A stretch of 64,000 nt of DNA, from IMG/VR virus record IMGVR_UViG_3300042344_000800, positions 1-64,000 of that record. One strand, given 5' to 3'. The translations under genes were made by a program, and so were the position numbers. Below are positions 1,949-53,133 of the stretch, in pieces. The notes under the pieces are model-generated. The model did no database searches. It saw nothing but the letters and a program-made list of their open reading frames with translations, and was not told the origin of the DNA. The stretch is from a virus. Numbering within the stretch: the first letter of the stretch is position 1; each line of letters starts with the position of its first letter.

Positions 1949-2230
1949 ATGACACCCATGACTAATACTATTGAGAACAGGTATGTACCGGATTTTATTT
2001 CTCCACCAGGTGAAACCCTTGCTGAAATCCTAGAGGAAAGAAATATGTCTCAATCGGAACTCGCCCAACGCATGGGCAGACCAAGAGAGACTATCAATGA
2101 GGTCATAAAAGGTAAAGCGGAGATTACTAGCGATACCGCTTTACAGATAGAGTTAGTGTTAGGAACTCCGTCCAGTTTCTGGATAGAGCGGGAAAGACTT
2201 TATCGGGAATATTTAGCCAAAAAAGACTAA
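1949..2230 (+). CDS. higA: HigA/VapI-type HTH antitoxin-like regulator
   Basis: 93 aa. Residues about 19-75 carry the HigA signature: PPGETLAEILEERNMSQSEL, then RMGRPRETINEVIKGK, a helix-turn-helix of the XRE/HigA family. HigA normally neutralises the mRNA interferase HigB and represses the operon. No HigB-sized gene lies on either side, so this is an orphan. It may be a regulator or an anti-toxin defence against a host toxin. AGAGGA is 10 bases before the first ATG. A second ATG three codons later is possible. Confidence 0.85.
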   Translation: MTPMTNTIENRYVPDFISPPGETLAEILEERNMSQSELAQRMGRPRETINEVIKGKAEITSDTALQIELVLGTPSSFWIERERLYREYLAKKD

Positions 2231-2283
2231 CCCCTATAAGGATTTCTTATCATTCAACTATAAGAAATCCTTATTAATTAGGG
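2231..2283. terminator. Long hairpin after higA-like gene
   Basis: Same element as 1141-1193: arms cccctataaggatttcttat and complement, immediately followed by a -35 box. Confidence 0.6.
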
Positions 2284-14295: not shown

Positions 14296-15147
14296 CTATT
14301 TAGTTAAAGAACCACCAGTTGCTTTCAAAATCTCAGGCATCGTTCGGAGTTTTCCTAACGGTAATCCTTGAGGTTGACTTGGTGTAATCGCTGGACTGTC
14401 TGGAGACTTACGAATTGTGAAGTCGATGTCCACCCCAGAGAACCATGCTACTGATGCGGGGAGGTCGTATATCCCCACTGAATAGCAGAACATCGCACGA
14501 GTCCAGAGGTGGGCAATCTGGAAGGCCAAGCAAAACCTCGCTGAATCTTCTTTCTTTACGATGTAACGGTACTCGTCGTGAATCGTGATACATAGGCGGG
14601 CGTTAATTTTGTACTCTCGACATAGATAGGATGTGGCGGTTAGACAGAGGTGCATAAAGTCTACACCAGAACTTTGGCAAACCCAGTTTACTTTGGAGGT
14701 CATGAAGTCCCGATTACCAGTATACCGGGGGTGCAAAGCGTCGCTTAAGGTTCTCCCTAAAGCGGGGGTTCGGGGGTCGCGGGAGGTAGCAACCCTTTCC
14801 ATTTCATTGAACATTGCAGACTCGCTACCCAATTTCCATTGTCCTTCAATTTTCTTCCCCTTGGTTTTGGTAAACATCTCTGTGGCAATCTGTTTAGCCT
14901 GAGAGGAAGTCAAAGATTTTCGGAACTGTCTCAGATAATTAGTCATCGCAGTTAACCCGGCTCCATATCTCCGGCTGTAGACCGAAATTTTTGCTTCATC
15001 TCTGGTCACACCCAGCAATTTTGCGGTCATTGAATGGACATCACTGCCATCCTCCTTGCGCCCCGCTAGGGTTTGGAAACTGGCAGGGGTTCCCCCAATA
15101 AGCCCTACCTTTGAATCACCAAATAAGTCGGATAACCATAACTCTTG
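14296..15147 (-). CDS. DNA polymerase, mitochondrial Pol gamma type, exon 2 (palm and fingers)
   Basis: 283 aa continuing exon 1 in frame after intron removal. It starts QELWLSDLFGD, completing motif A (GADVDS then QELW). Motif B is DVHSMTAKLLGVTRDEAK followed by YSRRYGAG. MTSKVNWVCQSSGVDFMHL and motif C CITIHDEYRYIV follow, then DLPASVAWFSGVDID. These blocks, and their order to the C-terminus, are those of metazoan and fungal Pol gamma rather than of bacterial Pol I or T7 polymerase. Without splicing this part has only a fortuitous ATG made by the last intron bases. Confident on family; splicing is inferred. Confidence 0.93.
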   Translation of the reverse strand, partial: QELWLSDLFGDSKVGLIGGTPASFQTLAGRKEDGSDVHSMTAKLLGVTRDEAKISVYSRRYGAGLTAMTNYLRQFRKSLTSSQAKQIATEMFTKTKGKKIEGQWKLGSESAMFNEMERVATSRDPRTPALGRTLSDALHPRYTGNRDFMTSKVNWVCQSSGVDFMHLCLTATSYLCREYKINARLCITIHDEYRYIVKKEDSARFCLAFQIAHLWTRAMFCYSVGIYDLPASVAWFSGVDIDFTIRKSPDSPAITPSQPQGLPLGKLRTMPEILKATGGSLTK

Positions 15148-16045
15148 CATTTGTATTACGAATAGCCCGCTTCCGACTATTCTCTGTAAGTTTCCCTACA
15201 GATTTGACTATATCTTCACGGTTTCCCGTGTCCCCCATTTCGAGCTTGCTTAAGCCCTACGATACTAGGCCTTTAGACTTTAAGAGTTTGTGGTACAGCT
15301 TACCTCTCTTTATACATGAGACTGTATTTTGGCTAACAGAGTATTTCTCGGCTATACCAGATTGAGTCCCATCATCCAAAAAGATTTTTATAACTTCCTT
15401 ATCCTCTAGTTTATTGAGCTTTTCTCTAGTCGATGAAGATTCCTGTACAACCTTTCCCACCGTGACACCTGAAACTCCCACTAGCTTTCCTATCCGAACG
15501 TTAGATAATCCTTGGGCTTTAAGTTCCAATACCCTATCTTTAATACGTTCTCTTGTTTCAGCAAATTGGTTTATACCTTTCATTCTTCTGACCTTTCTTC
15601 CCTCTCCCTTCAAAACAAAATCCATGCGGTTATTGTGAGAGTAGGTACACCATTCTAAGTTATCAAGACAATTATTAGTTTTGCAGTCGTCTATGTGGTG
15701 AACTACTGGGAACCCTTCAGGGTTTGGTAAAAAAGCGAAAGCAACTAATCGGTGTATGGTTTTCTTAGACCATTTACCATTGTCATCTTTGACGGTCACT
15801 CGGTAGTAACCCCACTTATCTGGTACAGGCTTCAGGTATTTTTGTGTTAGGTGGGAGTAGATACGACCCGTTTTAGAGGCACTGTAGTATCTAAAACCGG
15901 GGATTGTAGCTAGGCTTTCCTGCTGATTGTCCATAACCTTTAACTTTTTAAACGCTACCCTAATTGTATCCTAAAAGGGTCGTGGTGTAAAGGCTTAACT
16001 GGATTTTCCAGCAGTTAAAGGGATTTAACGACAGCCATTGTGTTA
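15148..16045 (-). mobile_element. Group I intron in the DNA polymerase gene, 898 bp
   Basis: The upstream coding region stops just after GADVDS and the downstream one resumes at QELW. Removing 16045-15148 joins AGT and CAA without loss of a base. The 5' exon ends in U and the intron ends in G, as group I introns require. Exon GACAGT can pair with intron GCTGTC at 16029-16034, with a terminal U-G wobble at the splice site (P1). The sequence AAGATATAGTC (complement of 15206-15216) matches the conserved S element. It contains an HNH endonuclease gene. The rest of the core was not folded. Confidence 0.88.
15257..15934 (-). CDS. Intron-encoded HNH homing endonuclease
   Basis: 225 aa. An N-terminal NUMOD4-like segment (IPGFRYYSASKTGRIYSH) precedes the HNH core: RLVAFAFLPNP, then VVHHIDDCKTNNCLDNLEWC. 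The C-terminal part holds two helix-turn-helix modules (GLSNVRIGKLVGVSGVTVGK and QSGIAEKYSVSQNTVSCIKR) that would read the target site. It should cut intronless alleles of the polymerase gene and spread the intron. It lies wholly inside the intron. Confidence 0.92.
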   Translation of the reverse strand: MDNQQESLATIPGFRYYSASKTGRIYSHLTQKYLKPVPDKWGYYRVTVKDDNGKWSKKTIHRLVAFAFLPNPEGFPVVHHIDDCKTNNCLDNLEWCTYSHNNRMDFVLKGEGRKVRRMKGINQFAETRERIKDRVLELKAQGLSNVRIGKLVGVSGVTVGKVVQESSSTREKLNKLEDKEVIKIFLDDGTQSGIAEKYSVSQNTVSCIKRGKLYHKLLKSKGLVS

Positions 16046-17920
16046 ACTGTCAACATCAGCACCGATTTGCAAATAACCTTCAGGAATCCGAATTGTGGTT
16101 TTAATCTCGCTTCCTATACGGTTCTTTTTGCTGTTAGATGCTGTCAGCCAAGTGCTTTCTACTGCCCGTCCCGTGACTGTCCCTGCTACCACCATCTGGG
16201 GAATAATATATCCCGTTTGGTTGTCTTTGTTCATCACAACAAACTGGGATTTTACCCGACTTTGTACTGATACCCAGTACGAACAGGAAATTGCCGCTTC
16301 AAGAGCTTGTTTTGCTTCAGGGAAATCAGAGTTTAGCACCCCTTTCTCCATTTCAGACAAATAATCTTTGGATAGTGGGCAACCCACATTTGAGTCATCC
16401 CCGTCTTTATGGGGTATAGGGTAGTACACCTTAGTCGCTTCAGTTTCCCCCACTTCTTCCCCGACATCATTTAGATAAATTGGGTCTAAATTGGATTCGA
16501 CTTCTTCCCCAACTGGTGTCACAAAGCCCCATTTTCTTTTGGGATGGTGGTAGAGTGGGTAGTCAAACCATTTTAAACGAAGTAAGTAAGGAGTACACTG
16601 GGTTTTCACCGTTAGATTGATTTTTTCCCCCTTAAATAATTTTCTGTACCACTCAGGCTTATCCTTCATGATTTTTGCCCGGGAAGAAGGCATAGTCCAA
16701 TCCAGATTACATAACCACGGGTCTAGTTTTGGGTCAAGACTCCCGTTTAAGAATCCCTCAACCGCTTCATCTGCCAATAGACGCAAATGTTTCTCAACAC
16801 GGGTTTTTTCTTCAACAAATTTACTTTCGGCTCTGTCTATATAACCGAACCACGATTCACGGGTAATAGGCAGGATAGCCGTACCCATTTCTAGCATCCC
16901 AAAGAAAGTCACGTTAGATGGGCATTTTTCCCGAAATCTTGCCCACAATAGCTTATAAAGTTTGAAGGTAATCTCAGTGTCTTTCACACAATAGTCAGCT
17001 AATTGTTGAAAACGATTTTTGATTTCAAGCAAGGTTCCAGTAACAAAATAATCTCGGTCGTCTTTGGACATCTCAACACCCAGGTATAACCGAGCGGCAT
17101 CTTTTAAAGAATTACCAGAGCTTACATCAAGCCATGCAGAGGCATAATCTAATCCAGCGTCCTCACCATTAGCTTTTGCTTTGGCATTTTTTAGACTTAG
17201 GGGACGTTGTTTAGAAGAAAGCCCTCCCACGCATTGGTGCATGGACATGACATCCCAAAATCGGAGTCCGCCTAACTCTAGGCTATACGGTTCAAGGGTT
17301 CTTTGTTTATCATAAGAACAATTCCACCCAGCTACCAGTTTAGGGCTATTTCCTAGCGGACAGAGGACATCACTGCCATCTGTTGCCAACTTCGGAGAAA
17401 CCCAAAAGTACCAAGCTACGGGTGAGACAGCACTAGCCATCACAGGGTAATTTGAACTTCTTACAGCAACTTCCACGTCATACACCAGTCCATCTTCTGC
17501 TGGGTACGGAACGGGGTAGGGTTCTTCACCTGGTTCATAGCACGTCCAACCTGGACGTAACAGAATTTCGTGGGGTCTCGCTGGAATAACGGCTCTGGCC
17601 ATTTGTTCTGCGATAGATAAATAAGGTTGGGCTTGGGATTCTGCTATTTTATTGAAATGTTCTTCCAGGTCTGCCCCCTGTAGTGGGGGTAACTCAAATT
17701 CAATGTCTTCTGGTACATCGACTTCCACATTATCCAGTCCAAATCGGGCTAATTCAGCTTTAGCCAATTTAACACTACCAGCGAAGGGCTTTTGACGTTC
17801 CCCTCCGAATAGTTGCTTCCGCATGGATTCAGGGATAAGTGGGATTCCTACTTCGTTTAACCTTGGCATTAGACCGTTATAAAAATGTTTACTTTGACTA
17901 ACATTGATTTCTTGCTTCAC
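16046..17920 (-). CDS. DNA polymerase, mitochondrial Pol gamma type, exon 1 (exonuclease and spacer)
   Basis: 625 codons from a GTG; an ATG 17 codons in is an alternative. VYDVEVAV (about residue 144) is the 3'-5' exonuclease Exo I motif, and ADYCVKDTEITFKLY (about residue 310) is Exo III with its Y-x3-D. The end, QIGADVDS, is the first half of polymerase motif A. Joined to exon 2 it gives about 908 aa. The long region between the exonuclease and motif A corresponds to the Pol gamma spacer. It is the replicative polymerase candidate; its promoter is at 18044-18083. Confidence 0.9.
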
Positions 17921-34674: not shown

Positions 34675-35301
34675 CTAATCGTCGCACGCAACCCGAAAAC
34701 CAAAGTCGTCGTAGTGGATGACGGGGTTGTTCTGGAGGCGGTTAGCAGAACGACAGTAATAAGGGAAGATGTGCCAAGAACCGCCCCGCAGACAAATATC
34801 CTCACACCACTCCCAAACATTACCACTCATGTCATAAAGCCCCCAACCATTGGGCTTTTTCTGTCCTACAGGATGAGTTTTGTTATTAGAATTTTCGTCA
34901 TACCAAGCGTACTCCCCTAACTGATTAGCATCATCACCAAAATAATAGTGAGTAGTTGTACCTGCTCGACAGGCATATTCCCATTCAGCTTCTGTGGGAA
35001 GACGATAGGTTTTGCCTGTGATTTCACTTAATTTTAGGCAAAAGGCTTGAGCATCGTCCCAACTAACTTGTTCTACTGGATTTTGGGGACTATTTTCAAA
35101 GTAAGAGGGATTGGTTCCCATTACTGCTTGATACTGTGCCTGAGTAATGGGATATTTGCCAATGGCAAAACTGTTTACTTTAACTTGGTGTTTAGGCTTT
35201 TTAGAATCACTTTCAGAAGAACCCATGAGAAATTGACCTGCTGGTAAGCTTACCATTTCTAATGTTACTCCGTTGGGTAGTTTTTCGGTAAATTGGTTCA
35301 T
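34675..35301 (-). CDS. FGE-sulfatase (C-type lectin fold) protein with variable C-terminus, shortened copy
   Basis: 208 aa. MVSLPAGQFLMGSSESDSKK, then RLPTEAEWEYACRAGTTT and GLYDMSGNVWEWCED are the SUMF1/FGE-fold markers. The two catalytic cysteines of true FGE are not evident, so it is probably a ligand-binding relative. Compared with 35542-36501 it has lost about 20 residues after WEWCED. The C-terminal codons between CTGCGGGGCGGTTCTTGG and GGTTTTCGGGT are mostly NNC type and differ sharply from the paralogue, as in variable regions of diversity-generating retroelements. Confidence 0.85.
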   Translation of the reverse strand: MNQFTEKLPNGVTLEMVSLPAGQFLMGSSESDSKKPKHQVKVNSFAIGKYPITQAQYQAVMGTNPSYFENSPQNPVEQVSWDDAQAFCLKLSEITGKTYRLPTEAEWEYACRAGTTTHYYFGDDANQLGEYAWYDENSNNKTHPVGQKKPNGWGLYDMSGNVWEWCEDICLRGGSWHIFPYYCRSANRLQNNPVIHYDDFGFRVACDD

Positions 35302-35429
35302 TTTTTTTTTTTTTGTTAGTCCCAAATAGTTGATAACTGATAACTGATAACTGATAACTGATTATAGCGTTCGACTGGTTGTTTATCGTTACCCGTAATC
35401 TTGTTTTCCGTGTTTGTTTGCCTGATGCT

Positions 35430-35541: not shown

Positions 35542-36501
35542 TTAAGCTTTGCAATCTTGGAGAAAAGCCCATAAATAATCTTTATGTTCGGTAAAATTAT
35601 TTAGCATTTGATACACTTTTTGAGTATCAAAAACACCTGGATAAACACCGGAATAGGGTTGGTGGAAATATATTTTACAGTAGAGACCATCTTCGCTTAT
35701 TGCTAAACGATGTCCTAACTTTACTAGCATTTTTTCGAGCTTTACAGCAAATTCTTTTACACTAGAGGTAAGAAGGGGGAAATTAAAGGCGTTGTAAAAG
35801 AACATTTGATTGTCGCAGACTACCCGAAAACCGTCGGTGTCGTCGTAGTTGTGGCGGCTGTCGTAGTAACGGTAAGCGGAACGGCAGTCACCCAAAAGGT
35901 CGCTCCAAGAACCGCCCCGCAGTAACTGATAATCATTATCATTTGTTACCCAGGCACTGCCATTCTTTGGTGCATTTTCGTAGCTATCGTGCCAATAGTC
36001 CTCGCACCACTCCCAAACATTACCACTCATGTCATATAGTCCCCAAGCATTGGGCTTTTTCTGACCCACAGGATGAGTTGTATTTTGAGAATTTCCTTCA
36101 TACCAAGCGTAATTTCCTAACTGATTGGCAACATCACCAAAATAATAGCGAGTAGTTGTATCCGCACGACAAGCATATTCCCATTCCGCTTCTGTGGGTA
36201 GGCGATAGGTTTTGCCGGTTATTTGACTCAATTTCTGACAAAAGGCTTGAGCGTCATTCCAACTAATCCTTTCTACCGGATTTTGGGGATTATTATAAAA
36301 ATAAGAGGGATTGGTTCCCATTACCGCTTGATATTGTGCTTGAGTAATGGGATATTTCCCAATAGCAAAACTGTTGACTTTAACTTGGTGTGGAGGCTTT
36401 TCATCCTCGCTTTCAGCAGAACCCATGAGAAACTCACCTGCTGGTAAGCTTACCATCTCTAGTGTGACTTGATTGGGTAGTTTTTCGGTAAATTGGTTCA
36501 T
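35542..36501 (-). CDS. FGE-sulfatase (C-type lectin fold) protein with variable region and C-terminal extension
   Basis: 319 aa. The first ~225 residues are a close paralogue of 34675-35301, with the same markers (LPTEAEWEYACRA, GLYDMSGNVWEWCEDYW). The region CRSAYRYYDSRHNYDD is encoded by TAC, GAC, AGC, CGC, CAC and AAC codons, the pattern made from AAC codons by adenine mutagenesis. It then continues about 85 residues (after VVCDN) with no match to the fold, as if a stop was lost and a downstream ORF starting MFFYNAFNFPLL was joined. DGR targets usually end near the variable region. Confidence 0.85.
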   Translation of the reverse strand: MNQFTEKLPNQVTLEMVSLPAGEFLMGSAESEDEKPPHQVKVNSFAIGKYPITQAQYQAVMGTNPSYFYNNPQNPVERISWNDAQAFCQKLSQITGKTYRLPTEAEWEYACRADTTTRYYFGDVANQLGNYAWYEGNSQNTTHPVGQKKPNAWGLYDMSGNVWEWCEDYWHDSYENAPKNGSAWVTNDNDYQLLRGGSWSDLLGDCRSAYRYYDSRHNYDDTDGFRVVCDNQMFFYNAFNFPLLTSSVKEFAVKLEKMLVKLGHRLAISEDGLYCKIYFHQPYSGVYPGVFDTQKVYQMLNNFTEHKDYLWAFLQDCKA

Positions 36502-53061: not shown

Positions 53062-53133
53062 TCTGGGTTGTGGGAGTCGAACCCACCTATGCCGTCTTAT
53101 GAGGACGGTGCTTATCCGATAAGCTAAACCCAG
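53062..53133 (-). tRNA. tRNA with CAU anticodon (Met elongator or Ile2)
   Basis: 72 nt. Acceptor CTGGGTT/AACCCAG with discriminator A, D-arm GCTT/AAGC, anticodon stem CCGTC/GACGG with loop CTCATAA, T-arm GTGGG/CCCAC with TTCGACT. The anticodon stem lacks the three G-C pairs of initiator tRNA. A CAU tRNA is Met elongator, or Ile after lysidine modification. No CCA is encoded. The promoter is 53159-53188. Confidence 0.93.

Follow-up and report, generated by a model that had tools for sequence, protein, structure and literature searches.

A genuine group I intron, an RNA intron of the self-splicing type, was confirmed at positions 15148-16045 of the window, the 64,000-nt stretch of DNA analysed here, which is part of a 90,646-bp virus record. 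The window phage is related to the freshwater cyanophage Mic1, and the intron splits its DNA polymerase gene within motif A. The assignment lies far beyond chance because of the Rfam E-value (6.7e-7), the covariation of the RNA core (0/500 shuffles), introns at the same base in Mic1 and at the loci L022, L023 and L024, and an empty site in a close relative (L001); on these grounds the group I intron proposed in an earlier, sequence-only reading was upheld. The DNA itself shows that the insertion is exact, that an allele without it exists, that the RNA core covaries, that the ORF is intact and that different phage backbones have a flank block in common. The best explanation of the data as a whole, and one that we consider very probable, is a group I intron spliced from the polymerase RNA, with HNH homing that copies the intron together with its flanks. 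The features are listed in Table 1.

Table 1. Positions in the window of the split polymerase gene, the intron and its elements, and the block shared with L002.
Feature	Position	Strand	Basis
Exon 1, exonuclease domain through GADVDS of motif A	16046..17920	-	Pfam DNApol_Exo 6.6e-80; PHROG 22619 DNA polymerase
Group I intron, probably of IA2 type, 898 nt, ending in G	15148..16045	-	Rfam match, P1/S element, covarying core, empty site in L001
P1: exon GACAGU 16051-16046 with intron guide GCUGUC 16035-16030, U.G at splice site	16030..16051	-	Invariant in four introns
P3 5' strand UCCCUU, partner GGGGGA 15236-15231	16018..16023	-	Three pairs with two-sided changes
P4 hairpin GCUGG/CCAGU; P5 absent in ORF-bearing introns	15998..16012	-	Four-intron comparison
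P6/P6a 5' strand AAGCCUUUACACC, proposed partner GGUUGUACAGGAAUCUU at 15452-15436 inside ORF	15984..15996	-	By eye from sequence, same in L023; unscored
HNH homing endonuclease ORF, 225 aa, I-HmuI-like, NUMOD4, helix-turn-helix-like C-terminal part	15257..15934	-	Pfam, PHROG, PDB similarity
P7 5' strand (R element UCGACUA) within HNH ORF, partner 15210-15205	15427..15433	-	Outer pair U-A, A-U or C-G; conservation island
P7.2 GGGCUU/AAGCUC after GUA; overlapped by HNH stop codon	15242..15257	-	Four-intron comparison
P8 CACGG-GAAA-CCGUG	15217..15230	-	Two pairs with two-sided changes
S element AAGAUAUAGUC and P7 3' strand	15205..15216	-	Rfam, covarying core
P9 and P9.1 hairpins	15160..15201	-	Four pairs with two-sided changes
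Exon 2, QELW of motif A and motifs B and C	14296..15147	-	Pfam DNA_pol_A 2.9e-11; joined product matches pol gamma chains
Block (exon flanks and intron) where L002 agrees with window against L001	14746..16340, right edge ~14746-14686	-	Informative sites

On the minus strand exon 1 ends with GAT GTT GAC AGT and exon 2 begins with CAA GAG TTA TGG. Both exons join without loss of a base into an unbroken frame of 908 aa, and the boundaries given in the sequence-only reading proved exact. The joined product was compared with solved DNA polymerase gamma chains (E = 1e-96), and the alignment spans GADVDSQELW as well as motifs B and C. All 14 distinct sequences among its PDB matches are pol gamma, the best one with the E-value just given. 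By these matches, the split gene is a pol gamma-like family A phage DNA polymerase. The intron is inserted between the Ser and Gln codons (GADVDS/QELW), three codons past the catalytic Asp of motif A (D890 in human POLG). The earlier placement inside motif A was therefore right, but not that at the catalytic Asp codon itself. After transcription, the RNA core would excise the intron and restore motif A, and full-length polymerase would come from spliced RNA only.

The covariance-model search suggested in the sequence-only reading did return a group I match (RF00028, 35 bits, E = 6.7e-7 over 1.4 kb), although under the gathering score of 50 bits, which is a curated score threshold and no structural criterion. 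The low score is attributed to the ORF, which interrupts the core; the ORF-less Mic1 intron obtains 45.5 bits, likewise below the gathering score. A core alignment of four distinct introns (window, L023, L022 and Mic1) was laid out by hand and then evaluated with a pair counter. In this layout, which was made with the structure in mind and leans towards it, with rows ungapped and segments contiguous in the sequences, 99.5% of cells are paired and 11 pairs are changed on both sides; none of 500 shuffles matched these values. Slid versions of the alignment brought the paired cells down to 35-44%. Two-sided changes are present in each of P3, P4, P7, P8, P9 and P9.1, and P3, P7 and P8 form with the P3/P7 pseudoknot in 4/4 introns. 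The sequence also has the expected P1 pairing (GACAGU/GCUGUC), a U at the exon end, a G as the last intron base and the S element AAGATATAGTC. GUA and P7.2 occur in 4/4 introns and a clear P7.1 only in Mic1 and L022; the succession of GUA and P7.2 is that seen in IA2 introns, the one of Pf-WMP3 among them (PMC3428280). The ORF-bearing introns have a minimal P4 hairpin and lack P5. It is very improbable that the intron is degenerate, with splicing lost and the polymerase made in two pieces, as the missing P5, the P7.1 that is clear only in Mic1 and L022 and the low Rfam score might suggest: all core pairs are retained with compensatory changes, a break here would leave the catalytic Asp on one piece and the remainder of motif A on the other, and the second piece, by eye, has no start codon with a clear ribosome site.

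In its 5' half, which lies within the HNH gene, the Rfam match is probably mis-threaded. Rfam places the P7 5' strand at the end of this gene, where GUCUA/UAGUC would contain a U-U mismatch; this placement was rejected, as UCGACUA inside the ORF pairs and covaries. From these pairings, the 5' strand of P7, the guanosine-binding helix, is assigned to the HNH frame in both ORF-bearing introns. The 30-nt bin holding it is 80% identical between the window and L023, compared with 33-60% in neighbouring bins, and the outer P7 pair differs between the introns (U-A, A-U or C-G). The HNH frame ends in a stop codon that shares bases with the invariant GUAGGG preceding P7.2. A P7 strand inside an ORF is nothing new in kind, because the Pf-WMP3 ORF also spans P7 (PMC3428280).

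The HNH gene already noted in the intron from the sequence alone (ORF 15934-15257) has an intact frame with HNH_3 (2.5e-7) and NUMOD4 (2.2e-6) domains in Pfam. Its product is similar to I-HmuI (9e-10), the only solved relative found, and a close search of viral contigs with this protein gave matches in the window's group only. An HNH enzyme of the I-HmuI type would nick or cut intron-less alleles near the insertion site, the presumed intact target being GACAGTCAAGAGTTATGG, and repair would copy the intron plus a few hundred bases of flanking exon. The location of the HNH gene within the polymerase gene could also be ascribed to a free-standing homing gene or an intein in place of an intron, but the ORF is embedded in a group I core, and introns lacking it exist at the same base, which makes this reading extremely improbable. 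An intein was rejected outright, because a stop codon follows immediately in the exon 1 frame (AGT TAA). A sigma-70-like sequence (TTTACA-17 nt-TACAAT; window 15963-15991, minus strand; L023 4336-4364, plus strand) lies a short way upstream of the HNH gene and overlaps P6. It is kept in both ORF-bearing introns and may allow endonuclease expression apart from the polymerase message; since chance alone should produce matches of this sort at such lengths, we treat it only as a lead.

Close relatives of the window phage were found with and without the intron. L001 and L004 represent one phage, being one base apart over 19 kb. Over 31 kb, L001 has 97.2% identity to the window but no intron; its uninterrupted site reads GATGTCGATTCA/CAGGAATTGGCT, where the slash marks the insertion point. 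It had been argued from the sequence alone that host cells cannot lose the intron by imprecise deletion. This inference is contradicted: the carrier is a phage, and because the empty L001 allele exists (in a genome 97% identical elsewhere), the intron can be absent, or be lost by allele replacement without deletion. The L001 allele has GAUUCA where P1 needs exon GACAGU. Judged by pairing, the guide GCUGUC would find no P1 partner in GAUUCA, and to splice there the intron would therefore have to bring its own flank along.

L003 shows no difference from the window in the part that was compared. L002, a third phage, has the intron although its upstream exon 1 is almost indistinguishable from that of L001. 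Between -294 and about +402/+462 relative to the insertion, L002 sides with the window at nearly all informative sites, so that it carries about 290 bp of the window's flanking exon on the exon 1 side and 400-460 bp on the exon 2 side. The sample covers three distinct phages from the group of the window, and the distinct introns compared number four. Differences between the window and L002 amount to 1/898 in the intron and 6/700 in the block, compared with 90/2600 upstream (Fisher p = 7e-11 for the intron alone); by these counts, intron and flanks were recently common to two phage backbones. Homing with co-conversion would account for this pattern, as would ordinary recombination exchanging the alleles, and the pattern suggests that the intron moves between phages with surrounding gene sequence. 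The shared block is no proof of homing, because these phages have mosaic genomes and recombine elsewhere too. When the direction of the allele exchange was examined with Mic1, L022 and L023 as outgroups, p was 0.07-0.16 for the whole block and 0.03-0.08 for its exon 2 part. It is conceivable, if rather unlikely, that a genuine group I intron was spread here by ordinary homologous recombination of related phages, the HNH gene being uninvolved in the exchange seen. Both the mosaicism and an outgroup test that did not identify the imported allele are in line with this; against it, the block extends almost equally far to both sides of the insertion, divergence is lowest in the intron, and the HNH gene has kept its full frame. 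Homing with co-conversion is the reading we prefer.

Introns at the same base measure 298 nt in Mic1, 294 nt in L022, and 894 nt each in L023 and L024, the last three being loci from IMG/VR contigs. A search seeded just downstream of motif A, and hence a biased sample, gave 73 more distant pol gamma-like viral loci; 72 have no interruption at this site, and the remaining one is cut off by the contig end. The core pattern was found in only five IMG/VR contigs, all of the same group, and no uninterrupted site coding for DVDSQELW was found in IMG/VR contigs. Among bacterial and archaeal genomes, related cores were found on one contig only, in a different gene and with a different endonuclease. 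Kinship among the four introns conflicts between ends and ORF: the last 113 nt of the window intron are 90% identical to the ORF-less L022 intron, whereas its 5' part and ORF group with L023. The polymerase exons of L022 and L023 are mostly 45-80% identical to the window in 75-nt bins. These comparisons suggest that modules were exchanged between intron lineages, although shared structural constraint may be behind part of the conflict. A broader picture, speculative and on balance doubtful, is that the motif A site serves as a homing arena, either empty or holding ORF-less or HNH-bearing introns, where the central HNH-P6 module and core ends are swapped between phage lineages; the sole empty allele sampled in the close group, with a QELA motif A and a different flank, might then be endonuclease-resistant.

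Group I elements were also observed in other genes. L109, a phage-like contig binned in a Firmicutes MAG, contains two group I introns (1279-1589 and 2146-2266, minus strand; 72.9 and 25.1 bits), the second adjoining an ORF of endonuclease-like look, near structural-type genes. In Lactobacillus phage LBR48 (L008), the unannotated stretch 2001-2119 shows 71% identity to the 3' part of the window intron and sits between pieces annotated as terminase large subunit and putative endonuclease; it is probably a group I intron of the terminase gene that the annotation misses. Elsewhere in the window, a tRNA gene (53062-53133, minus strand; 54.8 bits) is the only Rfam match above the gathering score. 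Two neighbouring paralogues (34675-35325 and 35542-36501, minus strand) bear the signature of a formylglycine-generating-enzyme-like fold (GNVWEWCED ... LRGGSW...GFRVxCD). Their C-terminal ends vary at sites scattered along them, which resembles the targets of diversity-generating retroelements, and 86-90% repeats are spaced 1.2 kb apart; a reverse transcriptase was looked for in the 90.6-kb record and not found.

The nearest known case is Mic1, for which 'an intron of 298 bp' in the DNA polymerase gamma gene is reported (MN013189; PMC7156551); the searched passages of that paper assign it no group I class. The Mic1 intron shares gene, insertion base and the P1, P3, P7, P7.2, P8 and P9 architecture with that of the window, but is 298 nt long, has no ORF, and has a long P5 region and a short P6. 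It can now be classed as group I. In the deposited Mic1 annotation (L007 2177-5153) there are two polymerase genes, Mic1_86 ending at the intron TAA and Mic1_85 starting inside exon 2; the intron explains why these pol gamma genes are annotated as two. The closely matched phages with and without the intron also form a test set for homing, co-conversion and loss by allele replacement.

HNH-bearing group I introns in phage DNA polymerases (SPO1, Bastille, Pf-WMP3) are already well known, polymerase genes being split in nearly half of Bastillevirinae (PMC11878797), and general knowledge of group I introns is unchanged by the window intron. The I-PfoP3I intron of the Phormidium phage Pf-WMP3 was shown to self-splice, and its enzyme to nick (PMC3428280). 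Like the window intron, it resides in a family A polymerase of a cyanophage and has an HNH ORF spanning P7; it is an IA2 intron with P7.1-GUA-P7.2 and an ORF starting from P6a (PMC3428280). A common insertion site was ruled out after joining the Pf-WMP3 exons: Pf-WMP3 is interrupted at SSSKP/NIQQIP, about 30 codons upstream of motif A, in a T7-type polymerase, and its HNH motif lies near the C-terminus. The introns of SPO1, SP82 and Bastille (I-HmuI, I-HmuII, I-BasI) encode the same type of HNH enzyme in a polymerase gene, but occupy the Pf-WMP3 position (PMC3428280), hence another site, and have Bacillus hosts. Among the phages compared here, the motif A position thus differs from that of Pf-WMP3, SPO1, SP82 and Bastille, and it adds a second polymerase position used by such introns in cyanophages.
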